Below, piece by piece: positions 41,136 to 60,414 of a stretch of DNA of 64,000 bases. Each line of letters starts with the position of its first letter. Position 1 is the first letter of the stretch. This DNA comes from Indioceanicola profundi (GTDB lineage Bacteria > Pseudomonadota > Alphaproteobacteria > Azospirillales > Azospirillaceae): assembly GCF_003568845.1 (NCBI RefSeq), contig NZ_CP030126.1:658501-722500 (forward strand), given 5' to 3'. A program made the position numbers and the translations under genes. The notes below the pieces were generated by a model. The model saw nothing but the letters and a program-made list of their open reading frames with translations, was not told the origin of the DNA and searched no databases.

Positions 41136-41138
41136 ACC

Positions 41139-43136
41139 ATGCCGGAGAAGAGCGTGCCCGACACGCCAGCCACCAGCCCCGCCGACATCCCCGACCTGAG
41201 CCGCGCCGCCCGGCAGGAGCAGTTCCTGGAGGTTGTCAGCCGGGAGGAGGCCTCGCACCGCTTCCATGCCGCCCTGGACCTGTCCCCGCTGCCCGGCGAG
41301 GCGGTGCCGTTGGCGGCTGCGCTGGACCGGGTGCTGGCGGCGGATGTGGTAGCCCCGGTGGACGTGCCCTGCTTCGACCGCTCCGGCGTCGACGGGTTCG
41401 CGCTGCGGGCGGAGGATACGGCCGGGGCCGGTGACGACCGGCCGGTGCGGCTGGTGCTGAATGGCGAAGTACTGTCCTGCGGCGTCGCCCCGTCCCTGAC
41501 GGTGCGGCCCGGCACGGCCACCGTGATCGCCACCGGCGGGATGGTGCCCCGCGGGGCGGACGCCGTTATGATGGTGGAGCATACGGATGTGGCGGAGGAG
41601 GACGGGCGCGCCATTGTGCTGGTGCGCCGCCCCGCGGCCTCCGGCCAGTTCATCGCCTTTGCCGGCAGCGACATCGGGCGCGGTGAAACGGTGCTGCGCC
41701 GCGGCCAGCGCCTGACCTCCCGCGAGATCGGCGTGCTGGCGGCGCTGGGCCTCACCGAGATCGCGGTGGTGCGCCGCCCGCGGGTCGCCATCCTGTCCAC
41801 CGGGGATGAGCTGCTGGCGCCGGGGGAGCCCATGGCTCCCGGCCGGGTCTATGACAGCAACGCCGCCATCCTGGCCGCCGCCGTGGCGGAGGCGGGCGGG
41901 GAGCCGGTGCCGCTGGGCATCGCGCCGGACCGGGAGGATGTGCTGCGGGAGCGGGTGGCGCGGGGAATGGACGCGGACCTGCTGGTCCTGTCCGGCGGAA
42001 CCTCCAAGGGGGCCGGCGACATCTCCGCCCGCATCGTGGAAGGTTTGGGCGAGCCCGGCATCCTGGTGCACGGGGTGGCGCTGAAGCCTGGAAAGCCGGT
42101 GTGCCTCGCCGTGTGCGATGGCAAGCCGGTGGTGCTGCTGCCCGGATTCCCGACCTCCGCCATCTTCACCTTCCATGAGTTCGTGGCCCCGGTGATCCGG
42201 GCGCTGGCCGGGCTGGGGGCGGAGGTGCCGGACATGGTGGAGGCCACCCTGCCGGTGCGGATCACGTCGGAGCGGGGACGGACGGAATTCGTCATGGCCT
42301 CCCTGATGCGGACGGAGCAGGGGCTGGCGGCCTATCCCACCGGCAAGGGCTCCGGCGCCGTCACCTCCTTCGCCCAGGCGGACGGCTTCTTCCGCGTGCC
42401 GCAGCATGCGGAGCGGGTAGATGCCGGGGCTCCGGTTCAGGTCCAACTGATCGGCAGGCGGCTGGAGCCGGCGGACCTGTCCATCATCGGCAGCCATTGC
42501 GTCGGGCTGGACCTGCTGGTGGGGGAGCTGGGGGCGGCCGGGCTGAAGGTGAAAATCCTGTCGGTCGGCAGCATGGGCGGGCTTGCCGCGGCCAAGCGGG
42601 GGGAGTGCGACATCGCCCCGGTCCATCTGATGGACCCGGCCAGCGGCCTCTACAACACGCCCTTCCTTGCACCGGGGCTGGAGCTGTTGCCCGGTTACGG
42701 CCGCTTGCAGGGCATCGTCTTCCGGCCCGGCGACGGGCGGTTCGAGGGGCGGGAGGCCGCGGCGGCGCTGGCCGGGGCGGCGGCCGATCCGGACTGCCTG
42801 ATGATCAACCGCAATCCCGGCAGCGGCACCCGCATCCTGGTGGACCGGCTGTTGGCGAGGGCGAGGCCCGCCGGCTACCGGACCCAGTCCAAGAGCCACA
42901 ATGCCGTGGCCGCGGCGGTGGCGCAGGGCCGGGCGGACTGGGGCGTCGCCATCGCCGGCGTCGCCAAGCTCTACGGGCTGGGCTTCCTGCCCCTGCAGCC
43001 AGAGCAGTACGATTTCATCATCCCGGATACGCGCCGGGACCGGCCGGCGGTGCAGCGCTTCATCGAGGCGCTGGCCGGTCCGGACCTGCGCGCCCGTCTG
43101 GCCGGGCAAGGCTTCACATTGGGAGAAGAGCGATGA
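41139..43136 (+). CDS. MoeA fused to a periplasmic-binding-like domain
   Basis: The 665 residues combine a MoeA half with a substrate-binding (PBP/LysR-type) half. The MoeA half (about 40-430) has PCFDRSGVDGFALRAEDTAG, GMVPRGADAVMMVEHTDV, AILSTGDELLAPG, LVLSGGTSKGAGD and LLPGFPTSAIFTF. The binding-like half (about 445-660) has LSIIGSHCVGLDLLVGELG, then NRNPGSGTRILVDRLL and DWGVAIAGVAKLYGLGFLPL. MoeA inserts molybdate into adenylated molybdopterin, and the extra domain may sense or deliver an oxyanion. The fusion is a known architecture in bacteria and archaea. Its stop overlaps the next gene by 4 nt. Confidence 0.9.
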   Translation: MPEKSVPDTPATSPADIPDLSRAARQEQFLEVVSREEASHRFHAALDLSPLPGEAVPLAAALDRVLAADVVAPVDVPCFDRSGVDGFALRAEDTAGAGDDRPVRLVLNGEVLSCGVAPSLTVRPGTATVIATGGMVPRGADAVMMVEHTDVAEEDGRAIVLVRRPAASGQFIAFAGSDIGRGETVLRRGQRLTSREIGVLAALGLTEIAVVRRPRVAILSTGDELLAPGEPMAPGRVYDSNAAILAAAVAEAGGEPVPLGIAPDREDVLRERVARGMDADLLVLSGGTSKGAGDISARIVEGLGEPGILVHGVALKPGKPVCLAVCDGKPVVLLPGFPTSAIFTFHEFVAPVIRALAGLGAEVPDMVEATLPVRITSERGRTEFVMASLMRTEQGLAAYPTGKGSGAVTSFAQADGFFRVPQHAERVDAGAPVQVQLIGRRLEPADLSIIGSHCVGLDLLVGELGAAGLKVKILSVGSMGGLAAAKRGECDIAPVHLMDPASGLYNTPFLAPGLELLPGYGRLQGIVFRPGDGRFEGREAAAALAGAAADPDCLMINRNPGSGTRILVDRLLARARPAGYRTQSKSHNAVAAAVAQGRADWGVAIAGVAKLYGLGFLPLQPEQYDFIIPDTRRDRPAVQRFIEALAGPDLRARLAGQGFTLGEER

Positions 43137-43339
43137 ACGACGATACCTTCAACATGTCCCTGCGCAAGTTCCTGAAGCAGGTCGGCGTCACCAGCCAGCG
43201 CGCCATCGAGCAGGCGGTGCAGGAGGGGGTGGCGACCGGCCAGTTGAAAGGCAACGAGGTGCTGAAGGCCCGCGTGGTGCTGACGCTGGAGGGCGCCGGA
43301 GCGCCCCATGTGGTCGAAGGCGACATCACGCTGGAGTGA
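43133..43339 (+). CDS. DUF6494 family small protein
   Basis: This is a 68-residue protein starting MNDDTFNMSLRKFLKQVGVT, with QRAIEQAVQEGVATGQLKGNE and a C-terminal beta pair (HVVEGDITLE). It is recognisable as the DUF6494 family, whose function is unknown. It overlaps the MoeA fusion by 4 nt (ATGA), so it is translationally coupled to Moco biosynthesis. No signal peptide or membrane segment is present. Confidence 0.85.
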   Translation: MNDDTFNMSLRKFLKQVGVTSQRAIEQAVQEGVATGQLKGNEVLKARVVLTLEGAGAPHVVEGDITLE

Positions 43340-43354
43340 TCGCGCCCTCATCAC

Positions 43355-43393
43355 CGTCACCCCGGCGGAAGCTAAAGCGACACTGGGGTGACG
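43355..43393. repeat. short REP-like palindrome
   Basis: CGTCACCCC (43355-43363) and GGGGTGACG (43385-43393) are perfect inverted arms around a 21-nt centre containing CGGCGGAAGC. The arms match the outer ends of the larger element at 29941-30024. It lies between the DUF6494 gene and the WD40-cytochrome gene and may form an RNA hairpin. Confidence 0.7.
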
Positions 43394-43449
43394 GGGAAGG
43401 ATGCGGCAGGTTGAGCCCCTCGAACATTCCGACCGCCTGGACCCCGCCG

Positions 43450-44748
43450 ATGAAGCTCCTCCCGCTCCTGACCGCCCTGCTGCTCCTGGCGCTGCCTGCC
43501 AGGGCCGAGTTCGTCGGGCATGGAGGGCCGGTGAAGGGGCTCGCCGTCTCGGCGGACGGGGCGGAGATGGTGTCGGCCAGCTTCGACTACTCGATCATCC
43601 GCTGGAACCTGAAGACGGGGGAGGCGCAGGACGTCCTCTACGGCCATGACGCCGCGGTGAATGCCGTGGCGCTCCTGCCGGGCGGCGCATTCCTGTCGGC
43701 CAGCGACGATGGAAGCATCGCCCTGTGGCAGGCCGGCGCGGAACAGCCGGTCAGGCGGCTGACCGGCCATGGCGGGCGTATCGCGGCCCTGGCTGTCTCA
43801 CCGGACGGGAAGCTTGCCGCCTCGGCCGCCTGGGACATGACCGTCCGGCTCTGGGACCTGGAAGCGGGTGCGGCGCGCGCGGTGATGAAGGGGCATGAGG
43901 GGCCGGTGAACGGTATCGCCTTCACGCCCGACGGCAACCGGCTGGTCAGCGCCGGCGCGGATGGGACGATCCGCGTATGGCGGGTTGCCGACGGCGTGCA
44001 GACAGCAATGTATGGCGGCGGGCCGGCGGCCCTGAACGGAATGGCCCTGACCCCGGACGGAGGCCGCGTGCTGGCGGCCGCGGCGGGCGGGCAGGTCCGT
44101 GCATGGGAGCTGGAAAGCGGGAAGGAGCTGCCGGCCCTGGCGGCCCCGGTGCCGGTACCGCTGCTGGCCCTTGCCGTCTCCGCCGATGGCGGCATGGCCG
44201 CAGCGGCGGGGGTGGACGGGGCGGTGAATGTCTGGACGCTCAAAGACGGCGTTCTGGCCTACCGCTTCGGCGGGGACCGCGGGCCGGTCTGGTCGCTGGC
44301 CTTCGCACCCGGCGGCAAGGCCCTGCTTTCCGGCGGAAACGACCGCATGATCCGGCAATGGAACCTGGAGAGCGGGCTGGAGGTCGAGGCGCCCACGGCG
44401 GTGAAGCTGGTCGAGGGCGATCCCCTGGCCAGCGGCGACGACGCCGGGGCCAAGGCATGGCGGCGCTGCGTCGCCTGCCACACGCTGGAGCCCGATGGCG
44501 GCAACCGCGCCGGCCCCACGCTGCACAACATCTTCGGCCGCCGGATCGGGACCCTGCCGGGCTATCCCTATTCCGCGGCGCTGAAGAACGGCAGCATCGT
44601 CTGGACGGAGGAGACGGTGGCGAGGCTGTTCGAGCTCGGCCCCGACGTGGTGACGCCCGGCACCAAGATGCCGATCCAGACCATCCCGAATCCGGAGGAG
44701 CGGGCGGCTCTGATCGCCTTCCTGCGGGAACACGCGATGGAACGGTAG
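43450..44748 (+). CDS. secreted WD40 beta-propeller fused to cytochrome c
   Basis: The 432-residue protein has a signal peptide (KLLPLLTALLLLALPARAEF), so it acts in the periplasm. Residues about 22-320 form roughly seven WD40 repeats (examples: SASFDYSIIRWNLKTGEA, SAAWDMTVRLWDLEAGAA, SGGNDRMIRQWNLESGLE). A class I cytochrome c domain follows. The haem motif CVACH is at 340-344, with GPTLHNIFGRRIGTLPGYPY after it and M407 in TKMP as the likely sixth ligand. The arrangement suggests a scaffold that docks an electron carrier. Placement between Moco and formate dehydrogenase genes suggests a role in formate-derived electron flow, which is inference. Confidence 0.9.
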   Translation: MKLLPLLTALLLLALPARAEFVGHGGPVKGLAVSADGAEMVSASFDYSIIRWNLKTGEAQDVLYGHDAAVNAVALLPGGAFLSASDDGSIALWQAGAEQPVRRLTGHGGRIAALAVSPDGKLAASAAWDMTVRLWDLEAGAARAVMKGHEGPVNGIAFTPDGNRLVSAGADGTIRVWRVADGVQTAMYGGGPAALNGMALTPDGGRVLAAAAGGQVRAWELESGKELPALAAPVPVPLLALAVSADGGMAAAAGVDGAVNVWTLKDGVLAYRFGGDRGPVWSLAFAPGGKALLSGGNDRMIRQWNLESGLEVEAPTAVKLVEGDPLASGDDAGAKAWRRCVACHTLEPDGGNRAGPTLHNIFGRRIGTLPGYPYSAALKNGSIVWTEETVARLFELGPDVVTPGTKMPIQTIPNPEERAALIAFLREHAMER

Positions 44749-45571: not shown

Positions 45572-47578
45572 TCAGTGATAATCCTCGCCCGTCATGGTCC
45601 TCGGACGGGCGGGACCGGTATAGGGGTCCATCCCGCTTTCGGTGACGGAGATGACGCGGCAGTCGGCGCACATGCGGATGCGGTCGGCCGGGTTGTTCGG
45701 GCCGGCGAACATCCAGTGCTTGTCCGCAAGCTGCTTCACGATCCGCTCCACCGTGGATTTGGTGCCGAACGGCTTGCTGCAGCGGATGCAGTGCGCCGGC
45801 TCCTCCTCCTTCACCAGCACGGGGCTGAACGCCGCGTCGGTGAGGTTCATGCGGGGCGACAGGCTGATCACCTTCTCGGGGCAGGTGTTCTTGCACAGCC
45901 CGCACTGGACGCAGGCATCCTCCGTGAAGCTCAGCGCCGGGCGGTCCGCATTGTCGGACAGGGCGCCGGTGGGGCAGGCGCCGACGCAGGCGAGGCAGAG
46001 GGTGCAGCCCTCCACATCGATGTCCAGCGTGCCGAAGGGTGCGCCGGCCGCCAGCGGCAGCATGTCGATGGGCTGCGGGGCCGCCTTGTGCATCTGGCGG
46101 ACCGACAGCTTCATCAGGCTGCGCTTGTCGCCCATGGGCAGGAAGGTCTTCGGCGTCGCGGTCCCGTCCCGGCGGGGCAGGGTGGACAGGGCGAAGGCCA
46201 GCTCGTCCGGATCGTCCGCCTCGATCAGCGCGCCGCGGCCGGTACCGTAGCCGAGCCCGCTCGCCAGCGTTTCCGCAAGGCCCAGCACCTTCGCTAGGGC
46301 CAGCAGGTCGTCGCGCCGGCGCTTGCCGGTCAGGATGCGGATTTCCGCCGCCCCATGGCCAAGCGCCGTGGCGAAGAACTCGATGCCGAGTTGGGTGATC
46401 TCGTTGACCTGGAAGGGGATGACCCGGGCCGGCAGCCCGTCGCCCCAGCGGGACAGCAGGTCGATCAGCGGGGCCCCATGCTCCCCCTCATGGACCAGCA
46501 GGACCGGCGCGGTGCCGCCGGACCCGAGATACGTGGTCAGCAGGACCCGCACCCGCTCCAGCATGTGGTTGGGACCGGGCATGGCATAGGTGGCGGCGCC
46601 CGTCGGGCAGACCGCGTGGCAGGACCCGCAGCCGGCGCAGATGAAGGGGTCGATCGCCACATGGTCCCCGTTCGGCGTGATCGCGCCGGTGGGGCAGACT
46701 TCCAGGCAGCGGGTGCAGCCGGTCTTGCGCGAGCGGCTGTGGGCGCACAGATCCTCGCGGTAATTGACATAGCGCGGCTTGTCGAACTCACCGGACAGGT
46801 CCGCCGCCTTGAACAGCAGCTTCTGCACCTCCGCCGGGCTGCCGGGATCGGCGCGCAGGTAGCCGTCGCGCTTGTGCGCGGCCGGGAACAGGGGCGTGCC
46901 GCCGGACAGGTCGATGATGATGTCGCACTGGGACGAGGCCCCGTTGCGCGCCGCCCCGAACGCCAGCACCCGGCGGGAGGAGGGGGCGGGGACGGCGTAG
47001 TCGTCCACCACGATCTCGAACGCGCCCAGATAGCCCTTGGCCGCGCGGATGGTGCCCTTCAGGACCGGAAAGTTCGTGGCGCGCGGCGGAACGACATCCG
47101 CCGGATTCGAGAGCAGCACGGTCACGTCCAGCTTGTCGGATAGCTGGCGCGCCGCCTCGATGGCCATCTCGTCGCGGCCATAGATCAGGGCGACGCCCTC
47201 GGACTTCAGCCCGATCACCGGCACGTCGGGCGTGCCCAGCGCGGCCTCCGCCAGCAGGGCGGCGATCTTCGGCGTGGCCTGCTCCCCTTCGGAGGACCAG
47301 CCCGCCCGCTCCCGGATATTCACCAAGCGGATGTTGTAGGACTCGCCGGCGGTCTCCTCCGCCGCTTCCTCGAACACCGCCCCTTCCTGGGTGCAGGCGA
47401 TCAGCAGCGGCCCGGCCGCCGCGGCGCGGCCCACCCGGTCCAGCTCCGCCCGGCAGAGCTGCGTCGCGATGCGCGGCGAGTCGTCCGACCCGCAGGCGCG
47501 GCCCAGGGCCGCCCCGTCCAGGGTCATGGTGCCTTCGCAATTGCAGACAAGAACCGTACGGCCCTCGATCTTCATCAT
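45572..47578 (-). CDS. multi-[4Fe-4S] protein of the formate dehydrogenase locus
   Basis: The 668-residue cytoplasmic protein begins MMKIEGRTVLVCNCEG. It carries at least four ferredoxin-type clusters: CTRCLEVCPTGA and CAGCGSCHAVCPTGA in the middle (about residues 275-320), and CTLCLACVGACPTGA and CVQCGLCKNTCPE near 515-565. Extra cysteine pairs (CIRC, CADC) lie near the C-terminus and could bind another metal. Residues 100-180 resemble a Rossmann-like region (VALIYGRDEMAIEAARQL). Homologues recur next to formate dehydrogenases, suggesting electron transfer or assembly. It is divergent from the accessory operon, with starts 147 bp apart. Confidence 0.85.
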   Translation of the reverse strand: MMKIEGRTVLVCNCEGTMTLDGAALGRACGSDDSPRIATQLCRAELDRVGRAAAAGPLLIACTQEGAVFEEAAEETAGESYNIRLVNIRERAGWSSEGEQATPKIAALLAEAALGTPDVPVIGLKSEGVALIYGRDEMAIEAARQLSDKLDVTVLLSNPADVVPPRATNFPVLKGTIRAAKGYLGAFEIVVDDYAVPAPSSRRVLAFGAARNGASSQCDIIIDLSGGTPLFPAAHKRDGYLRADPGSPAEVQKLLFKAADLSGEFDKPRYVNYREDLCAHSRSRKTGCTRCLEVCPTGAITPNGDHVAIDPFICAGCGSCHAVCPTGAATYAMPGPNHMLERVRVLLTTYLGSGGTAPVLLVHEGEHGAPLIDLLSRWGDGLPARVIPFQVNEITQLGIEFFATALGHGAAEIRILTGKRRRDDLLALAKVLGLAETLASGLGYGTGRGALIEADDPDELAFALSTLPRRDGTATPKTFLPMGDKRSLMKLSVRQMHKAAPQPIDMLPLAAGAPFGTLDIDVEGCTLCLACVGACPTGALSDNADRPALSFTEDACVQCGLCKNTCPEKVISLSPRMNLTDAAFSPVLVKEEEPAHCIRCSKPFGTKSTVERIVKQLADKHWMFAGPNNPADRIRMCADCRVISVTESGMDPYTGPARPRTMTGEDYH

Positions 47579-47725
47579 GCCTCCCACATGTCCGCGCGAT
47601 CCGGAAATCAGCGGCGCGGACCAAATCGGCCTACCGTAGCGTTCCGCGGGCTTGCTTGTCATTAACGTAGAGACAACAGATATTCACGCCCTGCCATTCC
47701 TTCGGGATGAAAGCGAGCCTGCCTC

Positions 47726-48457
47726 ATGTCGATTCCGTTCGCGGACCCCGATACCGACCCGGTGTTTCCGCCCCTCTTCACGCCCGTCACCGTGGGCGGC
47801 GATGCATTGCGCCATGCCGTGACGTCGGCCAGGGCGGGGGCCGGGGCGGGCAGCCTGTCCTGGTCGCGCGATGCCGACCGGTTCAGCGTGGCCGTGGTGT
47901 TCGAGCCGGAGATGAACCTCCGCGCCGCCCGCTTCGCCCATTATGTGACCATGGTGGGCATGGCCGACGCGCTCGGCGTGCTGGGGCCGCCCTACAAGCC
48001 GATCACCTTCGCATGGCCCGACCGGCTGGTGCTGGACGGGGCCGTGGTGGGGCAGGTGCGGCTGGTGGCGCCGGAGCAGCCGGACGACGAGGTCCCGGAA
48101 TGGTTGGTGGCCGGCGTGGCCATAAGGCTGCGCTTTCCGGGCACGCTGGACGATCCCGGCCGCACGCCCGACCGCACCGCGCTGTATGAGGAGGGATTCG
48201 GCGATGTCACCGCCCCCGCCTTGGCGGAGGCCTTCGCCCGGCACCTGCTGAACTGGATCAGCCGCTGGCTGGAGGAGGGGGCGGAACCGGTCGCGAGCGA
48301 GTGGCTGTCGCATCTTCCCCTCGACATCAAGAACGGCGATGTGCGCCACGGGCTGGACCCGAAGAATGGCGACCTCCTGCTGCTGGACCCCGGCAGCACC
48401 AAGCCGCGCCGCCGCGACCTGGCGGCCGGCCTGGCACTGGCGGAGGCGGAGCTGTGA
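47726..48457 (+). CDS. biotin/lipoate-ligase-fold protein, catalytic residues lost
   Basis: The 243-residue protein aligns by eye with the catalytic domain of biotin protein ligase. AWPDRLVLDGAVVGQVRL (96-113) corresponds to the KWPND...GRKLAGILVE stretch, and WLVAGVAIRL to the VVIGIGIN strand. The ATP/biotinyl loop GRGRRGR is replaced by RAGAGAGS, and the catalytic lysine position reads valine. Ligase activity is therefore unlikely, and a binding or scaffold role for the formate dehydrogenase system is inferred. It leads a run of four genes coupled by 4-nt overlaps or short gaps. Confidence 0.75.
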   Translation: MSIPFADPDTDPVFPPLFTPVTVGGDALRHAVTSARAGAGAGSLSWSRDADRFSVAVVFEPEMNLRAARFAHYVTMVGMADALGVLGPPYKPITFAWPDRLVLDGAVVGQVRLVAPEQPDDEVPEWLVAGVAIRLRFPGTLDDPGRTPDRTALYEEGFGDVTAPALAEAFARHLLNWISRWLEEGAEPVASEWLSHLPLDIKNGDVRHGLDPKNGDLLLLDPGSTKPRRRDLAAGLALAEAEL

Positions 48458-48963
48458 AGCTGCCCAGGACCATCCGCATGGACCAGACCGACCCCCTGGT
48501 GTTCGGCGAGGCGGCGGAGCCGGGGGAGTGGGCGGTCACCGGCTCCTTCGCCTTCCTGGGCGGGGACCCGCGGGAGCTGACCGGCAAGCCGCGCCAAGCC
48601 TTCGGCAGCGGGTTCCTGGGGGTGGACAGCTTCGGCTGGTCCACCTTCGTCAGCGTCGCCAGCGCCACGGCCGCCGACCATGACGCCGTGGTGGAAAGGC
48701 TGGCCGCCCGTTTCGTGGAGCGCTACGGCGCCCCCTCCCTGGACGCGGCCCGGCCCGTGGCGGCGGAGGAGGTGGCATTCGCCGCCGAACTGTGCCGGGA
48801 TCATCCGGTGAATACCCTGCTCGCCATTTCCCGCTCTGTCGATGATGACGGCGGCATCCGGGAGCAGGTGCGGGTGATCGATGCCAAGGGCGAGAAGCCC
48901 CATGCCGCCATCTGGGACATTGTGGCGGAGGATGACGAGAATGAGGATACGGCACCGCGATGA
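48454..48963 (+). CDS. DUF6505 family protein
   Basis: The 169-residue protein starts at a GTG that overlaps the previous stop by 4 nt (GTGA). Features are LPRTIRMDQTDPLVFGEAAE, GEWAVTGSFAFLGGDP, then KPRQAFGSGFLGVDSFGWST, with a C-terminal acidic tail. It is recognisable as the DUF6505 family found beside formate dehydrogenase genes; its biochemical function is unknown. No signal peptide or metal motif is present. The stop overlaps the DUF6352 gene by 4 nt. Confidence 0.85.
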   Translation: MKLPRTIRMDQTDPLVFGEAAEPGEWAVTGSFAFLGGDPRELTGKPRQAFGSGFLGVDSFGWSTFVSVASATAADHDAVVERLAARFVERYGAPSLDAARPVAAEEVAFAAELCRDHPVNTLLAISRSVDDDGGIREQVRVIDAKGEKPHAAIWDIVAEDDENEDTAPR

Positions 48964-49982
48964 GTCGTGATTTCTGGATCAGCTCCGGCCACCATCTGAT
49001 GGACCGGACGGAGGGCGGCGGGCTGGCCGTGACGCCGGACTTCCTGAAAGCCTATCTGGCCCGGCCCGAAATGGCCCCGGTGCCGGAGAGCTGCGCCAAT
49101 GAGCGCCAGCTCTACCGCGATCTGCTGGCCGATCCGCTGATGCAGGTGGACAAGGCTAGGCTCGCCACGCTGGCCGACCCGGATGGGCGGGAGAATTACG
49201 AGGTCTTGCTGGGCTTCCGCGACCATCTGGCGGCGCAGCCCTCGCTGGAGGCCGGATACCTGTCCCTGATGCGCAAAGGGGTGGGCCGGGTCCCGCGCCT
49301 GTTCCTGGACCAGATGGTGCACCTGATCCTGCGCAACATGCTGGACGGGGAGACGGACCCGTTCAAGCTGCGCGCGGCCGAATGCCTGTTCCGGGAGCAG
49401 AAGGTCAGCATCTCCGAAGGCGGCATCCTGCTGGCGGACGAGGAGACGGTGGAGCACCGCTCCAAGACCGGCGGTTTCGGCGGGCTGGGGCAGCTCCTGG
49501 CCGAATCCGGCACCAAGCCGCGCGCCGTAGACCTTGACGTGCTGAACGAGGAGAATGCGGACAGGTACTGGGAGCGCTCCGACCAGTTCGACATGGTGCT
49601 GGACGCCAGCTTCACCCGGCCGGGTCTGGATGCGCTCTGCCGCGTGTTGGAGCGGTGGGTCTGGCACTTCATGCAGGTCAAGGTCGCGATCCAGCCGGTC
49701 CAGACCATCCGGGATGAGCGCTGGGTCTGGCATGTCGGGCTGGATGCCGAGGCGACGAAGATTCTGAACGCGATGTGGCAGGGGGAGGAGGTGCCGCAGG
49801 CGGACCTTGCCCGCGTGCTCTCCCTGTTCCGGCTGGAATTCGCCGATCCGGCCGACATGGCGGACCATGTGGCCGGCCGCCCCGTTTACCTTGCGATGGC
49901 GATGACGCACGACCGGCTGCTGCGCCTGAAGCCGCAAAATTTGCTGCTGGGGCTGCCGTTCGCGCGGGAGGGGGTACAGTGA
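48960..49982 (+). CDS. DUF6352 family protein
   Basis: The 340-residue protein starts MSRDFWISSGHHLMDRTEGG and continues VTPDFLKAYLARPEMAPVPE, RVPRLFLDQMVHLILRNMLDG and RAAECLFREQKVSISEGGIL. It appears soluble and helical. The DUF6352 family is linked to this gene block and no activity is known. Histidines and cysteines are few, which argues against a simple metal carrier. ATGA overlap with DUF6505 implies coupled synthesis. Confidence 0.85.
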   Translation: MSRDFWISSGHHLMDRTEGGGLAVTPDFLKAYLARPEMAPVPESCANERQLYRDLLADPLMQVDKARLATLADPDGRENYEVLLGFRDHLAAQPSLEAGYLSLMRKGVGRVPRLFLDQMVHLILRNMLDGETDPFKLRAAECLFREQKVSISEGGILLADEETVEHRSKTGGFGGLGQLLAESGTKPRAVDLDVLNEENADRYWERSDQFDMVLDASFTRPGLDALCRVLERWVWHFMQVKVAIQPVQTIRDERWVWHVGLDAEATKILNAMWQGEEVPQADLARVLSLFRLEFADPADMADHVAGRPVYLAMAMTHDRLLRLKPQNLLLGLPFAREGVQ

Positions 49983-50049
49983 ACGGAAGGTCTTCAGGAA
50001 AGGTGATGGAAACCTGCACCGGCGCACTCGTCCCTGGTGGAGGCCAAGT

Positions 50050-50604
50050 ATGATCGTCGAGCGCATGCCCGTGGGCGTCGTGGTGGAGCGGCAGCCGGGG
50101 GTGACCAAATGGCAGGAGCATGTCTGGCGCGCCGTGGCGGTGCTGCCCGGCAGCCCGATGGTCGCGCCCTGGACGGAGCTGGGCCGGGAGCAGGGGCCAA
50201 GGGGTGAGATTGTGCGCTATTACGCCGGCACGGCGGAGCTGGTGGCCTATTCCGGCGGGGATACCAGGACCTACAAGCACAATGTCGAAGCGCCGGAGCC
50301 CTCCGTCTATGTGGTGCTGCGCCGTGCCGACACGTTGAGCGGCTGGACCCTGTACCTCGCCACCATCGACCCGGCGGAGGCGCATTCCCATGCCGACACC
50401 GGCGATGATCTGGTGGAGCGGCTGCCGATGCCGCCGCTGGTGTTCGATTGGCTGTCGGCCTTCGTGGCGCAGCACCATGTCGAGCGGATGGAGTGGAAGC
50501 GGAAGCGCGACCGTGCCGACCCGGATGCGCTGGGCGTCCGGGGCCTCGCCGCGGAGGAGCAACGCGGGCGCCGGCAGGCCGGCTGGGAGGATGAGGATGA
50601 GTGA
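50050..50604 (+). CDS. DUF3305 domain protein
   Basis: The 184-residue protein contains MPVGVVVERQPGVTKWQEHV, WRAVAVLPG and VKHNVEAPEPSVYVVLRR-like TYKHNVEAPEPSVYVVLRR segments typical of DUF3305. It ends in a charged tail rich in Arg and Asp. The family occurs almost always beside DUF3306 and formate dehydrogenase; its role is unknown. The start follows a GGTGGAGG region, and the end overlaps the DUF3306 gene by 8 nt. Confidence 0.88.
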   Translation: MIVERMPVGVVVERQPGVTKWQEHVWRAVAVLPGSPMVAPWTELGREQGPRGEIVRYYAGTAELVAYSGGDTRTYKHNVEAPEPSVYVVLRRADTLSGWTLYLATIDPAEAHSHADTGDDLVERLPMPPLVFDWLSAFVAQHHVERMEWKRKRDRADPDALGVRGLAAEEQRGRRQAGWEDEDE

Positions 50605-51298
50605 CCATGACGACGAATCCGGCGGCTTCCTGGGACGTTGGGCCCGGCTGAAGCGGGAAACCCGGAAGACCGAAATACGACCGGCCGAGCCGACGCCGGA
50701 GGAACAGGCCGCGCCCGCTCCGGTGGAGGAGCCGGAAGTCGATCTGGAGAGTCTTCCCCCGCTGGAAACACTGGGTCCCGGCAGTGATTTCACGCCGTTC
50801 CTGAAAAAGGGGGTTCCGCTCGTCCTCCGCAACGCCGCGCTCCGCAGGGCGTGGACCAGCGACCCGGTGATCGCGAACTTCCGCGAGGTGGCGGATTACG
50901 ACTGGGACTTCAATGCGCCCGGCTATGGTCAGCTTCTTCCCACCGACGACGTGAAAAAGCTGCTCGACCGATTGCTCGGCGGTTCGGACCCCGAGCCCAA
51001 ACCCCAGCCGCAGGACCCGGCGGAACAGATTCAGGTTGCCGAGGCGCAAGGGGATGAATCCACGACTGAATCGAACGTTCAGAACGCTCCGGACCTGCCG
51101 CCGCCCGACGACCACCTGCGGCTTCCGTCAGAGGAGCCGGTTCCGGTCCTTACCCAATCGATCTCCGAAAATCAGAAGGTTGGCGAGATCGGGGGTGAAA
51201 ATTCGGAGTATAAAAACGCAGAAGGGGTGATCCTGCTGAAGACAGAGCCGGAAGCCCCGCAAAGACGACGTCGCCACGGCGGTGCTGCACCGCGCTGA
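50597..51298 (+). CDS. DUF3306 domain protein
   Basis: The 233-residue protein starts MSDHDDESGGFLGRWARLKR. It contains SLPPLETLGPGSDFTPFLKK, then LRNAALRRAWTSDPVIANFR and DYDWDFNAPGYG, which define DUF3306. The C-terminal 90 residues are low-complexity, proline- and acid-rich and end in a basic cluster, so probably disordered. The ATG at 50597 lies 6 nt after GGGAGG; an ATG at 50591 is too close to it. The function is unknown. Confidence 0.87.
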   Translation: MSDHDDESGGFLGRWARLKRETRKTEIRPAEPTPEEQAAPAPVEEPEVDLESLPPLETLGPGSDFTPFLKKGVPLVLRNAALRRAWTSDPVIANFREVADYDWDFNAPGYGQLLPTDDVKKLLDRLLGGSDPEPKPQPQDPAEQIQVAEAQGDESTTESNVQNAPDLPPPDDHLRLPSEEPVPVLTQSISENQKVGEIGGENSEYKNAEGVILLKTEPEAPQRRRRHGGAAPR

Positions 51299-51586: not shown

Positions 51587-52216
51587 ATGGCAGGCGGGCC
51601 ACACGGCCGCGCGACTGATCCTGTCGGCGTCGGTGGGGCTCCCCTCGACGACGCCGATGTCATGCGCGCTCAATTCTGGTCCCTGCTCGGGGCGCTGCTG
51701 ACGCGGCCGCCTTCGCAGGAGCTGTTGGACCGCGTCGCCGGCTTGGGCGGCGATCGCACGCCGTTGGGCAATGCCCTGCGCACGCTGGCCGCGCGCGCCG
51801 TGGAGACGGATGAGCGCCGGGCGGAACGAGAATACCATGGCCTGTTCATCGGTGTCGCCCGGGGCGAGCTGCTGCCCTACGCTTCCTACTACATCACCGG
51901 ATTCCTGAACGAGAAGCCGCTGGCGCGCCTGCGTCAGGACATGGCCGCGCTTGGTATTGAACGCGCGGCGGGCAACAAGGATCCGGAAGACCACATCGGT
52001 TCCCTCTGCGAAATGATGGCCGGACTGATCGCCGGCGAGTTCGCGACTGACCTGGCGCATCAGCGGGCCTTCTTCGACCGCCACATCGCGCCCTGGGCCG
52101 GCCGCTTCTTCGCGGATCTGGAAAAGGCTGAGAACGCGCTGCTCTACCAGCCGGTCGGCACGGCGGGGCGGCTTTTCATGGGCATCGAGGCCGAGGGCTT
52201 CGCGCTAGGGGCTTGA
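51587..52216 (+). CDS. TorD/DmsD-family chaperone for formate dehydrogenase
   Basis: The 209-residue all-helical cytoplasmic chaperone would bind the Tat-signal-bearing catalytic subunit until cofactor insertion. Typical segments are RAQFWSLLGALLTRPPSQEL, EREYHGLFIGVARGELLPYA, SYYITGFLNEKPLARLRQDM and PEDHIGSLCEMMAGLIAGEF. The start follows GGGAGG at 8 nt. It leads the structural operon, consistent with a dedicated maturation factor. Confidence 0.9.
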   Translation: MAGGPHGRATDPVGVGGAPLDDADVMRAQFWSLLGALLTRPPSQELLDRVAGLGGDRTPLGNALRTLAARAVETDERRAEREYHGLFIGVARGELLPYASYYITGFLNEKPLARLRQDMAALGIERAAGNKDPEDHIGSLCEMMAGLIAGEFATDLAHQRAFFDRHIAPWAGRFFADLEKAENALLYQPVGTAGRLFMGIEAEGFALGA

Positions 52217-52256: not shown

Positions 52257-52460
52257 ATGGCGACGGACAGGAACGACAAGGTGGTCGTGCGCCGCGACGT
52301 GCTGAAGGCGATCGGCCTGGGTGCCGCCGGGGCTGCGGCCGCGGCGCCGCTGGTGGTGGCCGGCCCGGCCGTGGCGAAGGAAACCGCGGAGGAGCAGGTG
52401 AAGGCCCGCTACCAGGAAACCGACCACGTCAAGACCTACTACCGGACCAACCGGTACTGA
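52257..52460 (+). CDS. small Tat-signal protein of the formate dehydrogenase region
   Basis: The 67-residue protein is little more than a twin-arginine signal (VVRRDVLKAIGLGAAGAAAA) and a short hydrophilic tail ending YYRTNRY. It fits the TIGR02811-like 'formate dehydrogenase region TAT target' family. The ATG at 52257 follows AAGGAG at 6 nt, so it is preferred over the ATG at 52236. It may be an accessory or anchor peptide exported with the enzyme; the role is unknown. Confidence 0.85.
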   Translation: MATDRNDKVVVRRDVLKAIGLGAAGAAAAAPLVVAGPAVAKETAEEQVKARYQETDHVKTYYRTNRY

Positions 52461-52476: not shown

Positions 52477-55407
52477 ATGCTGGTGAAACGTTCGACATCC
52501 ACATCCGGCGTGCAGCGCGGCCGCATGGCCGCCGCCCTGGCCGGCGCCGCCCGGGGCGCGGCACTCGACCGCCGCGCCTTCCTGCGGAACTCGGGCCTCG
52601 CGGCCGGCGGCCTCGCCGCGGTCGGGACCCTGTCCTTCTCCACGATCCGCAAGGCGGAGGCGGGGCCCTACACGCCCGGCGTCCCGGTTGAGATCAAGAA
52701 GAACATCTGCACCCACTGCTCGGTCGGCTGCACCGTGACGGCGGAAGTGCAGAACGGCGTCTGGGTCGGTCAGGAACCGACCTACAACAGCCCGATCAAT
52801 CGCGGCACCCACTGCGCCAAGGGCGCTTCGGTGCGTGAGCTGGTGCATGGCGACCGCCGCCTTAAGTACCCGATGAAGCTCGAGGGCGGGGAGTGGAAGC
52901 GCCTCTCCTGGGAGCAGGCGATCAGCGAGATCGGCGCCAAGCTGACCGAAATCCGCGACCAGTCCGGCCCGGACAGCGTGTTCATGCTGGGCAGCGCCAA
53001 GTTCTCCAACGAAGGCGCCTACCTGTTCCGCAAGTTCGCCGCCCTCTGGGGCACCAACTCCGTCGACCACCAGGCCCGCATCTGCCACTCCACCACGGTG
53101 GCGGGTGTCGCGAACACCTGGGGCTACGGGGCGATGACGAACAGCTACAACGACATCGCCAATTCCAAGGCCATCATGATCATCGGCGGCAACCCCGCCG
53201 AGGCGCATCCGGTTTCGCTGCAGCATGTGCTGCGCGGCAAGGAGCTGAACCGCGCCCAGATGATCGTGGTCGATCCCCGCTTCACCCGCACCGCCGCCCA
53301 CGCGACGGAATATGTGCGGCTGCGTCCGGGCACCGACATCCCGCTGATCTGGGGGATGCTGTACCACATCTTCGAGAATGGCTGGGAGGACAAGGAATAC
53401 ATCGCCCAGCGCGTCCATGGCATGGACCAGGTCCGCGCCGAGGTGAAGAAGTGGACGCCGGAAGAGGTTGAGCGCGTCACAGGCGTTCCGGGCGAGCAGG
53501 TGAAGCGCATCGCCCAGGTGATGGCGACCAGCAAGCCCGCCACGCTGATCTGGTGCATGGGCATCACCCAGCACACAGTCGGCACGGCCAATGTGCGCGC
53601 CTTGTCCATCCTGCAGCTCGCCACCGGCAATGTCGGCATCGAGGGCGGCGGGACCAACATCTTCCGCGGCCACTGCAACGTGCAGGGCGCGACCGACCTC
53701 GGCCTCGACGTCACCTCCCTGCCGGCCTATTACGGCCTGGCGGAGGGGGCGTGGAAGCACTGGTCGCGCGTCTGGGAGCTGGATTACGAGTGGGTCCTCA
53801 ACCGCTTCGGCACCGCGTCCATGGACCGGGACGCCAAGAAGAAGCTGATGGAGGACAAGGGCATCCCGACCACCCGCTGGTTCGATGCGGTGCTGGCGGA
53901 CGCCAAGGATGTCGATCAGCCGGACCGCATGCGCGGCATGGTGGTCTTCGGCCATGGCGGCAACACGGTCACCCGCATGCCGGAGATGCGCAAGGGCCTG
54001 GAAAAGCTGGACCTGCTGGTCATCGCCGACCCGCATCCGACCACCTTCGCCGCCGTGTCCGAGCGCAAGGACGGCACCTACCTGCTGCCGATCTGCACCC
54101 AGTTCGAGACTTCGGGCTCCCGCACCGCCTCCAACCGCTCGCTCCAATGGGGTGAGAAGGTGGTGGACCCGATCTTCGAGAGCAAGAACGACTACGAGGT
54201 CATGTACCTCCTGTCGAAGGCGCTCGGGATCGAGCAGGAGATGTTCAAGAACATCCAGGTCAATGGCGACCAGCCGGTGCCCGAGGATATCCTGCGCGAG
54301 ATCAACCGCGGCACCTGGTCCATCGGCTATACCGGCCAGTCGCCGGAGCGGTTGAAGCAGCACATGGCGCACCAGGCCGACTTCGACATGGTGACCCTGC
54401 GCGGCAAGCCCGGCACTCCGGTGGCGGGTGAGTTCTACGGCCTGCCTTGGCCCTGCTTCGGCACGCCGGAGCAGAAGCACCCCGGCACCCATGTGCTCTA
54501 CAACACGCACCTTCATGTGCTCGAAGGCGGCGGCACCTTCCGCGCCCGCTTCGGCGTGGAGAAGGACGGCCAGACCCTGCTGGCCGAGGGCAGCTACTCC
54601 GTGGGTTCGGAAATCCAGGACGGCTATCCGGAATTCACCTACGGCGTGCTGAAGAAGCTGGGCTGGGACGTCGACCTGACGGAGGCGGAGCGCGCCACCA
54701 TCGAGCGCATCGGCGGCGAGAAGGCGGACACCGTCTCCTGGGCGACCGATCTCTCCGGCGGCATCCAGCGGGTGGCGATGAAGCATGGCTGCGTGCCGTA
54801 CGGCAACGCCAAGGCCCGCGCCGTGGCCTGGAACCTGCCCGACCCGGTGCCGGTCCACCGCGAGCCGATCTACAGCTCCCGCCCCGAACTGGTGGCGCAG
54901 TACCCGACGCTGGATGACAAGCGCGACTTCCGCGTCGTCAATATCGGCAAGACCGTCCAGTCCAACGCGGTCCAGGAAAAGATCAACGAGAAGTTCCCGA
55001 TCATCCTCACCTCCGGCCGTCTGGTCGAGTACGAGGGCGGCGGCGAGGAGACGCGGTCCAACAAGTGGCTGGCCGAGCTGCAGCAGGACATGTTCATCGA
55101 AGTCAATACCGAGGACGCGGCGCGTCTCGGCGTGAAGGATGGCGGCATGGTCTGGGTCTACGGGCCCGAGAACGGCAAGGCCCGGGTCAAGGCGCTGGTC
55201 ACCAACCGCGTCGGCAAGGGCGTCGCCTTCATGCCCTTCCACTTCTCCGGCTTCTGGGAGGGGGAGAGCCAGCGCGGCAACTATCCGCCGGGCACCGACC
55301 CGATCGTGCTGGGCGACAGCGTGAACGCTATCACGACCTACGGCTTCGACCCCGTCACCGCGATGCAGGAAACCAAGTGCACGCTCTGCCGCATCGAGGC
55401 GGCGTGA
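52477..55407 (+). CDS. fdhA: formate dehydrogenase catalytic subunit (Mo/W-bisPGD)
   Basis: This is a 976-residue molybdopterin oxidoreductase that oxidises formate to CO2. A Tat signal (ALDRRAFLRNSGLAAGG, R32-R33) directs the folded enzyme to the periplasm. The proximal [4Fe-4S] cysteines are C78, C81, C85 and C113 (CTHCSVGC and HCAKG, with K115 conserved). The active site is C203-H204 in RICHSTTVAG, so the metal ligand is cysteine, not selenocysteine. The bisPGD domains include VVDPRFTRTAAHATEYVRLR and TSGRLVEYEGGGEETRSN. A GGGGAGGA ribosome site precedes the ATG. Confidence 0.96.
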   Translation: MLVKRSTSTSGVQRGRMAAALAGAARGAALDRRAFLRNSGLAAGGLAAVGTLSFSTIRKAEAGPYTPGVPVEIKKNICTHCSVGCTVTAEVQNGVWVGQEPTYNSPINRGTHCAKGASVRELVHGDRRLKYPMKLEGGEWKRLSWEQAISEIGAKLTEIRDQSGPDSVFMLGSAKFSNEGAYLFRKFAALWGTNSVDHQARICHSTTVAGVANTWGYGAMTNSYNDIANSKAIMIIGGNPAEAHPVSLQHVLRGKELNRAQMIVVDPRFTRTAAHATEYVRLRPGTDIPLIWGMLYHIFENGWEDKEYIAQRVHGMDQVRAEVKKWTPEEVERVTGVPGEQVKRIAQVMATSKPATLIWCMGITQHTVGTANVRALSILQLATGNVGIEGGGTNIFRGHCNVQGATDLGLDVTSLPAYYGLAEGAWKHWSRVWELDYEWVLNRFGTASMDRDAKKKLMEDKGIPTTRWFDAVLADAKDVDQPDRMRGMVVFGHGGNTVTRMPEMRKGLEKLDLLVIADPHPTTFAAVSERKDGTYLLPICTQFETSGSRTASNRSLQWGEKVVDPIFESKNDYEVMYLLSKALGIEQEMFKNIQVNGDQPVPEDILREINRGTWSIGYTGQSPERLKQHMAHQADFDMVTLRGKPGTPVAGEFYGLPWPCFGTPEQKHPGTHVLYNTHLHVLEGGGTFRARFGVEKDGQTLLAEGSYSVGSEIQDGYPEFTYGVLKKLGWDVDLTEAERATIERIGGEKADTVSWATDLSGGIQRVAMKHGCVPYGNAKARAVAWNLPDPVPVHREPIYSSRPELVAQYPTLDDKRDFRVVNIGKTVQSNAVQEKINEKFPIILTSGRLVEYEGGGEETRSNKWLAELQQDMFIEVNTEDAARLGVKDGGMVWVYGPENGKARVKALVTNRVGKGVAFMPFHFSGFWEGESQRGNYPPGTDPIVLGDSVNAITTYGFDPVTAMQETKCTLCRIEAA

Positions 55408-55424: not shown

Positions 55425-56024
55425 ATGGCAAGAATGAAGTTCCTCTGCGACGCCGAGCGCTGCATCGAGTGCAACGCCTGCGTCACGGCCTGTAAGAACG
55501 AGCATGAGGTTCCGTGGGGCATCAATCGCCGCCGCGTCGTCACGCTGAACGACGGCGAAGTGGGCAAGGAGCGCTCCATCTCCATGGCCTGCATGCACTG
55601 CACGGACGCGCCCTGCGCCTCCGTCTGCCCGGTGGATTGCTTCTACACCACCGCCGACAATGTCGTGCTGCACAACAAGGATCTGTGCATTGGCTGCGGC
55701 TACTGCTTCTACGCCTGCCCGTTCGGCGCGCCGCAGTATCCGCAGCTGGGCAACTTCGGCAGCCGCGGCAAGATGGACAAGTGCACCTTCTGCGCCGGCG
55801 GCCCTGAAGAGGACGTCACCCCGGCGGAGTACGAGAAGTACGGCTCCAACCGCCTTGCCGAAGGCAAGCTGCCGCTCTGCGCGGAGATGTGCTCCACCAA
55901 GGCGCTGCTGGCCGGCGACGGCGACATCATCGCCTCCATCTACAAGGAGCGCGTGGTGACCCGCGGCTATGGCAGCGGCGCCTGGGGATGGTCCACGGCC
56001 TATCCCGACACGCGCGGCGTCTGA
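55425..56024 (+). CDS. fdhB: formate dehydrogenase iron-sulfur subunit (FDH3B type)
   Basis: This 199-residue electron-transfer subunit holds four [4Fe-4S] clusters relaying electrons from the active site to the membrane subunit. Cysteine motifs include CIECNACVTACKNEHE, CMHCTDAPCASVCPVDC, CIGCGYCFYACPFG and CTFC...CAEMC. Unlike FdnH it has no C-terminal membrane helix, so it must be held by the gamma subunit. It is exported with the catalytic subunit by the Tat pathway. GAGAGGAGG lies before the ATG. Confidence 0.95.
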   Translation: MARMKFLCDAERCIECNACVTACKNEHEVPWGINRRRVVTLNDGEVGKERSISMACMHCTDAPCASVCPVDCFYTTADNVVLHNKDLCIGCGYCFYACPFGAPQYPQLGNFGSRGKMDKCTFCAGGPEEDVTPAEYEKYGSNRLAEGKLPLCAEMCSTKALLAGDGDIIASIYKERVVTRGYGSGAWGWSTAYPDTRGV

Positions 56025-56044: not shown

Positions 56045-57055
56045 ATGCGGGATATCATGATCCAAGCCCGCCGCCTGATGGCGGCCGGCCTTCTCGCCCT
56101 TCCGCTGGTTGCAAGCGGCCCGGCTCTGGCACAGATGCCGGACCAGCCCGCCGCCACGCAGATGACGGAGCAGGAGGTTCAGCTCTTCCAGCAGCTCCAG
56201 GGCAACCTCGCCGGCCGGGTCAGCATCCCGGACGCCCGGTCCGCCACGCTGATCCAGCCGGAAGGCAAGGCGTGGCGCGATTTCTGGCGTGAGCAGTCAA
56301 AGCTCATCGGCGGCATCGCCATCCTCGGCATGCTGGCGGTGCTGGCAGGGTTCTTCCTGATCCGGGGCCGCATCCGCATCGAAGGCGGGGCGTCCGGCCG
56401 CACGGTGACCCGCTTCAACGGCTTCGAGCGCTTCGCCCACTGGCTGACGGCCAGCACCTTCATCGTGCTGGGCCTGACCGGGCTGAACATCAGCTTCGGC
56501 CGCTCCCTCCTGCTGCCCTTGATCGGGGCGGAAGGGTTCGCAGTGCTGGCGCAGGCGGGCAAGTACGCCCACAACTACCTGTCCTTCGCCTTCATGCTGG
56601 GCGTGGTCCTCATGTTCCTGGTGTGGGTCAAGGACAACATTCCCGGCAAGTTGGACCTCGACTGGATGAAGGCCGGCGGCGGCTTGGTCGGCCGTGGGCA
56701 TGCCCATGCCCGCAAGTTCAATGGCGGCCAGAAGATCATCTTCTGGAGCGTGATCCTGGGCGGCGCCGCCATCTCGGTCAGCGGCATCTTCCTGATGTTC
56801 CCGTTCCAGTTCACGGACATCGCCGGCCAGCAGCTCAGCCACATGGTGCATGCCCTGGTGAGTGTCGTGCTGATCGCCATCATCCTGGCCCACATCTATA
56901 TCGGCTCGCTGGGCATGGAGGGGGCGTTCTCCGCCATGGGCAGCGGTCAGGTGGACCTGAACTGGGCGCGCGCCCACCACGATCTGTGGGTGGAGGAGAT
57001 GTTCAGCGGCCGCACGGCCCCGACGCCGACCCCGCATCCGGTTGCGGCGGAATAA
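56045..57055 (+). CDS. fdhC: formate dehydrogenase cytochrome b subunit (gamma)
   Basis: This 336-residue inner-membrane di-haem cytochrome b would pass electrons to quinone. An N-terminal signal peptide (about 1-30) precedes a periplasmic stretch with QLFQQLQGNLAGRVSIPDAR. Five membrane helices follow near 88-106, 131-151, 175-195, 231-252 and 267-287. Likely haem ligands are H132, H176, H269 and H283. The C-terminus is proline-rich. The ATG follows GGGGAGGA. A strong terminator follows the gene. Confidence 0.94.
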   Translation: MRDIMIQARRLMAAGLLALPLVASGPALAQMPDQPAATQMTEQEVQLFQQLQGNLAGRVSIPDARSATLIQPEGKAWRDFWREQSKLIGGIAILGMLAVLAGFFLIRGRIRIEGGASGRTVTRFNGFERFAHWLTASTFIVLGLTGLNISFGRSLLLPLIGAEGFAVLAQAGKYAHNYLSFAFMLGVVLMFLVWVKDNIPGKLDLDWMKAGGGLVGRGHAHARKFNGGQKIIFWSVILGGAAISVSGIFLMFPFQFTDIAGQQLSHMVHALVSVVLIAIILAHIYIGSLGMEGAFSAMGSGQVDLNWARAHHDLWVEEMFSGRTAPTPTPHPVAAE

Positions 57056-59754: not shown

Positions 59755-60414
59755 TTATACCGGCGGCGGCGCGCCGCCCTGTTGGACGGCGATGCGGACC
59801 AGGTCGGCAGTGCGGCGGACATTGTAGCGGTTGCGCAGGCGGACCAGCGTGTTCGCTACCGTCTTGTAGGTGATTCCCAGGCGCGCCGCGACCTGATCCA
59901 GGTCCGTGGTTTCGGTCAGGAGGGCCATGATCTGCCGCTCCCGCGGGGTCAGGGGCAGGCTGCGGCCCAGGGAGGCCACGGCGTTGGCGATGGCGTGGCT
60001 CAGCCACACGCGGCCTTCCAGAGCCGCCTCCACCGCCCGCACCACGGCGTCGGGATCGTCGGACTTGCTGACATAGCCCATGGCCCCGGCCTCCAGGCAG
60101 CGGGATGCCACCTGCGGGGCCTCATGCATGGACAGCACGACGATGGCGGTGCCGGTCGCGGCCAGTTGCTGGACCAGGGTGAGACCGTTCGGGTCGCCGG
60201 GCATGTTCAGGTCCAGCAGCACGGCATCCGGTTCTTCGCGCGCGGCCAGTTCCAGCGCAGTGCGCCCGTCCGCCGCCTCAAGCACCCGGTAGCGGCCCAG
60301 CGGCGGCTCCAGCAGCCGGCGGCAGCCGCTTCGCACAACGGCGTGGTCGTCTGCCACCATGATCGTGCGGGTGCCGGTTTCCGCCTCCGGGGCTTCGAAG
60401 CCCGTCATGCTCAT
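59755..60414 (-). CDS. NarL/LuxR-family response regulator
   Basis: The 219-residue two-component regulator has a receiver domain with acidic pocket D22-D23, phospho-acceptor D68 (VLLDLNMPG) and K117 (YVSKSDD). A C-terminal LuxR-type helix-turn-helix follows (LTPRERQIMALLTETTDLDQ, VAARLGITYKTVANTLVRLR). It overlaps the kinase gene by 4 nt and is its likely partner. A direct target may be the divergent TonB receptor gene, which is inference. Confidence 0.93.
   Translation of the reverse strand: MSMTGFEAPEAETGTRTIMVADDHAVVRSGCRRLLEPPLGRYRVLEAADGRTALELAAREEPDAVLLDLNMPGDPNGLTLVQQLAATGTAIVVLSMHEAPQVASRCLEAGAMGYVSKSDDPDAVVRAVEAALEGRVWLSHAIANAVASLGRSLPLTPRERQIMALLTETTDLDQVAARLGITYKTVANTLVRLRNRYNVRRTADLVRIAVQQGGAPPPV

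Follow-up and report, generated by a model that had tools for sequence, protein, structure and literature searches.

Five adjacent genes of Indioceanicola profundi, encoding a biotin-ligase-fold protein, DUF6505, DUF6352, DUF3305 and DUF3306, probably specify helper proteins that build the FDH3 class of formate dehydrogenase and no other. DUF3305 and DUF3306 are an obligate core that goes with FDH3, while the ligase-fold protein, DUF6505 and DUF6352 are a mainly alphaproteobacterial add-on, sometimes unlinked from the enzyme genes or lost. An earlier note on this DNA had proposed one cytoplasmic assembly complex linked to formate dehydrogenase; the dedicated accessory role stands, but a single five-member unit does not, as the last three proteins are patchy in distribution and often encoded elsewhere.

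The module lies on the forward strand of the window (the whole stretch of 64,000 nucleotides that was analysed), and the Pfam matches of all five genes are far over the cut-off. The ligase-fold gene (47726..48457; PF16917, 206 bits, 5.6e-61) is followed by DUF6505 (48454..48963; PF20115, 199 bits), which has a GTG start and overlaps the ligase-fold stop by 4 nt, and by DUF6352 (48960..49982; PF19879, 260 bits), joined to DUF6505 through a 4-nt ATGA overlap. DUF3305 (50050..50604; PF11749, 110 bits) begins after a gap of 67 nt and overlaps DUF3306 (50597..51298; PF11748, 70 bits) by 8 nt. The tight packing with coupled starts described earlier therefore holds at three of the four junctions and fails between DUF6352 and DUF3305. 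The position given for the five genes was borne out: on one side lies a divergent multi-[4Fe-4S] protein with Fer4 domains (45572..47662, reverse strand) and on the other, 288 nt beyond the end of DUF3306, the formate dehydrogenase operon led by a TorD/NarJ-family chaperone (51587..52216, forward; PF02613, 113 bits). This operon continues on the same strand with a small protein whose translation carries a Tat signal (52257..52460), FdhA (52477..55407; Tat signal RRAFLRNS, active-site Cys203, then His), the FDH3 beta subunit (55425..56024; NF038355, 336.6 bits against a cut-off of 240) and the gamma subunit, a cytochrome b (56114..57055, start approximate; TIGR01583, 147 bits, profile match from 56114). 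With a beta subunit over the cut-off and a Tat-exported catalytic subunit with a Cys active site, the linked enzyme is classified from its sequence as FDH3-type.

Three MoeA-type genes, missed by the earlier note, flank the module on the forward strand. Two are found upstream: a MoeA-like molybdopterin-binding protein (39960..41135; Pfam MoeA_N, MoCF_biosynth and MoeA_C) and a fusion of MoeA and PBP-like domains, a 'molybdopterin biosynthesis protein' (41139..43136; Pfam MoeA domains and PBP_like) that scores 785 bits against its S. meliloti counterpart. Beside them lies the small DUF6494 protein (43130..43333; profile match of 74 bits, Pfam DUF6494 on the Salipiger homologue), a frequent neighbour of the module, and the third gene, of MoeA/Glp type, is located downstream (58380..59627, start approximate). 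A WD40 protein with one CxxCH motif (42901..44748, forward, true start probably near 43460) is the counterpart of a c-type cytochrome adjoining other FDH3 loci. Scans for promoters, terminators and Rfam families added nothing firm. None of the five module proteins has a signal peptide or a membrane-like segment (maximum 19-residue hydropathy 0.55-1.09), the hydropathy scan and the sequences agreeing with the earlier note on signal peptides. In the window, DUF3305, DUF3306 and the ligase-fold protein possess no cysteines at all, and DUF3306 is conserved over its central ~50 residues with variable flanks.

The earlier note had suggested a survey of co-occurrence, with frequent presence of these genes without formate dehydrogenase as the result that would speak against their link; no such frequent presence was found. 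FDH3 beta was counted only when over the cut-off, hits at E<0.001 being dropped as a marker because ferredoxin-like proteins match in nearly all genomes. Among 299 Pseudomonadota genomes, the FDH3 beta family and DUF3305 pick out the identical 54, and since at least seven families hold both positive and negative genomes, this match is not one of simple shared ancestry. Across 124 alphaproteobacteria, DUF3305 and DUF3306 are present in 20/20 FDH3 genomes versus 1/104 others, DUF6352 in 17/20 versus 1/104, the pseudo-ligase in 14/20 versus 0/104, and DUF6505 in 12/20 versus 1/104. The last three proteins are missing from some FDH3 genomes, in G060 all of them together, and are therefore not universally required. 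Where DUF6352 lies away from formate dehydrogenase genes, FDH3 is found elsewhere in the same genome in 33 of 38 cases. The sole alphaproteobacterial genome with DUF3305/DUF3306 and without FDH3 (G107) has the pair adjoining FdhD, MobA and the Fe-S gene, with an NAD-type formate dehydrogenase elsewhere. The genome of Indioceanicola profundi itself contains a second FDH3 operon without a DUF3305 of its own.

Conserved linkage, as the earlier note had it, was recovered in a survey of 80 loci with DUF6352 as the probe. In 13 of them the genes stand as ligase-fold/DUF6505/DUF6352/DUF3305/DUF3306, and in 11 further loci this order is found with the Fe-S gene between DUF6352 and DUF3305. Genes for MobA, FdhD, MoeA/Glp and a Tup-like (tungstate) transporter also recur at module loci. 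Isolated copies of DUF6352 were considered as the mark of another pathway and rejected as such, their neighbourhoods being ordinary and lineage-specific with no common partner; widespread housekeeping genes lie there, as does the gene of a B12-type ribonucleotide reductase. NCBIfam NF011058, defined as MobA with a DUF3305 domain, matches both proteins. No fused MobA-DUF3305 gene was encountered in the DUF3305 loci, genomes or plasmids examined, the fusion being known from the NCBIfam model alone.

The ligase-fold protein is predicted from its motifs to be a pseudo-ligase. Its profile (PF16917) matches, among PDB sequences, 3BFM at E 5e-82 and BirA structures down to E 5e-8; 3BFM is a solved close homologue deposited as 'of unknown function'. 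Copies were taken as linked to formate dehydrogenase only when they were full-length matches over about 120 bits, a raw search with the BPL family being positive in 86/124 genomes because ordinary BirA is included; matches in G072 and G023 turned out to be BirA. The GRGR loop (the GRGRxG biotin/ATP loop) is absent from all 66 linked copies and the KWPND catalytic lysine is replaced in 65 of them, by Ala in the window, and kept in one (L202), whereas both motifs are intact in 7/7 canonical BirA proteins from the surveyed genomes. The protein thus shares a fold family with BirA and 3BFM and has lost the ligase motifs. That it works as a biotin or lipoate ligase modifying a carrier of the operon, as its PF16917 score and the public annotation 'biotin/lipoate--protein ligase family' might suggest, is highly improbable given these losses.

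Structure models of DUF3305 and DUF6352 (pLDDT 88.5 and 90.9) gave no PDB structural match with E<=0.001 or Z>=5, and DUF3305, DUF6352 and DUF6505 gave only chance matches against PDB sequences. A weak similarity between DUF6505 and DUF7715 (E 0.003) was below the cut-off. The sources searched yielded no biochemical or genetic experiment on the five and assign no function to them. The earlier description of the module as one not yet described is correct to that extent but overlooks prior traces, namely a link of DUF3305/DUF3306 to fdh operons in a 2015 study (PMC4464133), the ligase-fold homologue 3BFM and the NCBIfam MobA-DUF3305 model. A regulator mutant of Shewanella oneidensis shows a joint decrease of FdhA (SO4509) and of SO4504 and SO4505, which are equated with the DUF3305/DUF3306 pair by gene order (PMC2535785).

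The five proteins are read here, with reasonable though far from full confidence, as cytoplasmic maturation factors dedicated to FDH3 that would act at the loading of Mo/W-bis-MGD before export. This reading builds on gene content, dedication to FDH3, predicted cytoplasmic location, loss of the ligase motifs and a neighbourhood of cofactor genes. As to binding partners, the loading step and the division of work among the proteins, we infer the following. The five would meet FdhA before its export, because FdhA has a Tat signal and they have none. The target of the DUF3305-DUF3306 core pair would be FdhA or its Mo/W-bis-MGD cofactor, once MobA has made the latter and alongside sulfuration by FdhD, while TorD would keep the unexported FdhA precursor. 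DUF3306, with its short conserved segment and variable tails, may be a tether and DUF3305 a folded escort; the 4Fe-4S protein may be a redox or Fe-S partner; and the pseudo-ligase, DUF6505 and DUF6352 may form an auxiliary unit for the same enzyme in alphaproteobacteria. A more specific version, put forward tentatively and judged rather unlikely, is an FDH3-own complex for handling Mo/W-bis-MGD in place of FdhE, in which DUF3305/DUF3306 would couple MobA-made cofactor to FdhA and the dead biotin-ligase fold of alphaproteobacteria would be reused, with DUF6505 and DUF6352, to bind the cofactor or its nucleotide part.

If DUF3305 and DUF3306, and perhaps the others, were soluble or regulatory subunits of FDH3 rather than assembly factors, their position in the operon and their perfect match to the beta subunit across genomes would be explained just as well. 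Such a subunit role is unlikely: FdhA is Tat-exported whereas the five have no export signal of their own (Tat hitch-hiking is possible), G107 keeps the pair without FDH3, and DUF6352 is often distant from the enzyme genes. In another reading, the 4Fe-4S protein and the carrier ATPase ApbC would be the centre of the module, whose main task would be to supply FdhA/FdhB with Fe-S clusters or electrons. The Fe-S gene recurs with DUF3305/DUF3306 at alpha, beta and gamma-type loci in the context survey, and ApbC lies in the cluster or next to it in Salipiger and at several further loci. However, ApbC is present in only 3 of the 80 DUF6352 loci, and the cysteine-free DUF3305, DUF3306 and ligase-fold protein cannot carry clusters through cysteine; delivery of this kind appears improbable as the main function. 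The island is often located on plasmids or chromids, as would be expected of genes merely inherited with it, but DUF6352, DUF6505 and the ligase-fold gene follow FDH3 even from other sites in the genome, and neutral hitch-hiking is hardly credible.

Dedicated maturation factors for FDH3 bear on a practical problem, as CO2-to-formate work is held back by the difficulty of making metal-dependent formate dehydrogenases in other hosts. For a tungsten enzyme of M. extorquens expressed in E. coli, maturation of the alpha subunit was limiting and generic chaperones were of no help (PMC13396061, 2026); that enzyme is, however, FDH1 and not FDH3. E. coli, one of 14 control genomes, has no DUF3305 match, and a factor present in every sampled genome that has FDH3 is a direct candidate for a missing requirement. 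DUF3305 and DUF3306 are good candidates for a missing step in loading the metal cofactor of FDH3, and five function-less Pfam families gain a testable function.

The passages of PMC4464133 (2015) available to us report DUF3305/DUF3306 beside dmsD-fdhGHI in 60% of such operons and call the pair putative membrane proteins with no function given, whereas no membrane segment was found here; those passages treat neither a tie to FDH3 nor the remaining three genes nor co-occurrence across genomes. The five resemble the redox enzyme maturation chaperones TorD, DmsD and NarJ in being operon-encoded, cytoplasmic and enzyme-specific, but none of them matches PF02613, as only the separate gene at 51587..52216 does. 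With sulfurtransferases of the FdsC/FdhD type, which bind bis-MGD, they would share the step suggested here, the loading of cofactor downstream of MobA, and genes for FdhD and MobA are present at many module loci; they differ in having no sequence match to this type, and DUF3305 and DUF3306 of the window lack cysteine. E. coli FdhE binds catalytic subunits. This accessory protein of FDH-N/O type (PF04216) is likewise cytoplasmic and dedicated to one exported class of formate dehydrogenase, but none of the five matches PF04216 at E 0.1. FdhE is nearly absent from FDH3 genomes, being found in 2 of 54 versus 43 of 245 others (p = 0.010), as if the FDH3 module took its place.

The five genes that the earlier note had placed beside the formate dehydrogenase operon are confirmed in existence, order and name by gene positions and profile matches: a ligase-fold protein (PF16917, 47726-48457), DUF6505 (48454-48963), DUF6352 (48960-49982), DUF3305 (50050-50604) and DUF3306 (50597-51298). 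Three of the four junctions overlap by 4-8 nt, while 67 nt separate DUF6352 from DUF3305 and 288 nt separate DUF3306 from the chaperone gene TorD (51587-52216). Downstream, the operon encodes a formate dehydrogenase of NCBI's FDH3 class that has three subunits and is exported through Tat, with Cys203, not selenocysteine, at the active site of FdhA. Upstream are two MoeA-type genes (39960-43136) and DUF6494, and downstream follows a third gene of the MoeA/Glp type (58380-59627), so that the segment is part of a molybdenum/tungsten-cofactor locus. One of these three MoeA-type genes carries a periplasmic-binding-protein-like domain as a fusion. The WD40-repeat protein at 42901-44748, which begins with a signal-like stretch and has one CxxCH haem motif, is possibly a periplasmic electron acceptor; its counterparts adjoin many FDH3 loci. 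Further downstream, at 59755-61790 (minus strand) and 61906-64000 (plus strand), are a response regulator/histidine-kinase-like pair and a TonB-receptor-like gene, which show no sign of module membership.

Presence was decided by profile cut-offs in two samples with a few genomes in common, 124 alphaproteobacteria and 299 Pseudomonadota, partly draft assemblies. The FDH3 beta subunit exceeds its curated cut-off in 20 of the 124 alphaproteobacteria. DUF3305 and DUF3306 are found in all 20 and in a single other genome (G107), DUF6352 in 17 and one other, the ligase-fold protein in 14 and no other, and DUF6505 in 12, plus a weak outlier interrupted by an in-frame stop (Fisher p between 3.5e-22 and 9.6e-11, in tests that ignore shared ancestry). 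The one firm exception in this sample is G006, which has DUF6352 but lacks any formate dehydrogenase over cut-off; its assembly is contaminated and split into 810 contigs. Among the Pseudomonadota, the same 54 of 299 genomes carry FDH3 and DUF3305, and since at least seven families (f19, f58, f119, f120, f141, f149 and f164) mix positive and negative genomes, this agreement stems from repeated gain or loss of the two together. The window's genome has a second FDH3 operon outside the window (L103, G000:C1:1830404-1833661; TorD, FdhA, FDH3 beta and gamma) with no DUF3305/DUF3306 of its own; the genome's only DUF3305 would have to serve both.

The earlier note had proposed a single complex of all five products; gene order divides them into two blocks. 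In 80 DUF6352 loci taken from named genomes, the blocks ligase-fold protein-DUF6505-DUF6352 and DUF3305-DUF3306 are contiguous in 13, and in 11 further loci the multi-[4Fe-4S] gene (divergent in the window, at 45572-47662 on the minus strand) lies between them. In loci from the phylum's other classes, what precedes the enzyme genes is mostly limited to DUF3305, DUF3306, the Fe-S protein and TorD, frequently accompanied by ApbC or FdhD; L140, which carries the ligase-fold protein and DUF6505, is an exception. We therefore distinguish an obligate core, DUF3305/DUF3306, from an auxiliary block found mainly in alphaproteobacteria. The same core neighbours as in the window occur in annotated relatives from Sinorhizobium meliloti, Salipiger and Bradyrhizobium; S. 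meliloti also has MobA and a TupA-like protein for tungstate binding, and Salipiger the Fe-S carrier ApbC. In G107 the core lies with FdhD, MobA and the Fe-S gene; this genome lacks FDH3 and has an NAD-type formate dehydrogenase, so that the core is tied to the cofactor genes of formate dehydrogenase, not to export as such.

DUF6352 lies near other module or formate dehydrogenase genes in 46 of the 80 loci and near none in 34; adding four partial modules gives 38 genomes in which it is apart from the structural genes. FDH3 exceeds the cut-off in 33 of these and is cut by a contig end in a 34th; of the remaining four, two (G420 and G437) have an alpha subunit that exceeds the TIGR01591 cut-off and two (G413 and G425) are assemblies of small size. 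No shared alternative partner of the isolated copies was found in the neighbourhoods inspected. Isolated copies at L221, L234 and L238 are on contigs labelled Betaproteobacteria, Burkholderiales and Bordetella, with FDH3 in two of those genomes, and DUF6352 is thus not confined to alphaproteobacteria.

Over its full length the ligase-fold protein can be aligned with 3BFM, a deposited biotin-protein-ligase-like structure of unknown function, and it also aligns to BirA. The GRGR nucleotide/biotin loop is missing in all 66 FDH-linked copies (five assigned to the group by locus) and the catalytic lysine is kept in one, whereas both are intact in 7 of 7 ordinary BirA proteins of the surveyed genomes; because of these losses, the protein is predicted to bind a ligand but not to ligate it. 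The copy at L202, the only FDH-linked one with the KWPND motif, also lacks the loop and is possibly an intermediate or a reversal. The DUF3305 model is confident (pLDDT 88.5), and the protein has an invariant basic motif, KRxR, close to its end; the model of DUF6352 reaches 90.9. Structure searches found no PDB match at E <= 0.001 or Z >= 5 for either. DUF3306 is a single conserved segment, SLPxIExLTxGSDFTxFL...AALRKAWTSDP...DYDWDF, with variable tails on both sides. No cysteine occurs in the window's ligase-fold protein, DUF3305 or DUF3306, which speaks against a role for these three in sulfur transfer or in carrying clusters.

FdhA has a Tat signal and all five proteins lack an export signal, which would put their encounter with FdhA in the cytoplasm. 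In NCBIfam, model NF011058 combines MobA with a DUF3305 domain and hits each of the two separate proteins; several loci also have MobA or FdhD genes next to DUF3305. On this basis we place the core at bis-MGD transfer, where it would act with FdhD as the cofactor passes from MobA to TorD-bound FdhA. We infer every functional step from gene content. FdhE is an accessory factor for the FDH-N/O type, and in the 299 Pseudomonadota it is nearly mutually exclusive with FDH3 (2 of 54 FDH3 genomes vs 43 of 245 others, p = 0.010). This inverse relation has still to be confirmed, because a 2015 survey reports that FdhD/FdhE, counted together, nearly always accompany torD-fdh operons (PMC4464133). In a Shewanella oneidensis SO2426 mutant, SO4504, SO4505, the Fe-S protein SO4506 and FdhA all fall (PMC2535785), and from gene order we infer that SO4504/SO4505 are the DUF3305/DUF3306 pair.

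DUF6352 and DUF6505 are named in no paper of the open-access literature searched, and subscription papers may say more. The link of DUF3305/DUF3306 to fdh genes was reported by the 2015 survey cited above, which places the two, called 'putative membrane proteins', in 60% of the dmsD-fdhGHI operons (PMC4464133). Enzyme-specific maturation factors for molybdoenzymes are already known as a kind of system; new here are these candidate factors and the strictness of their pairing.
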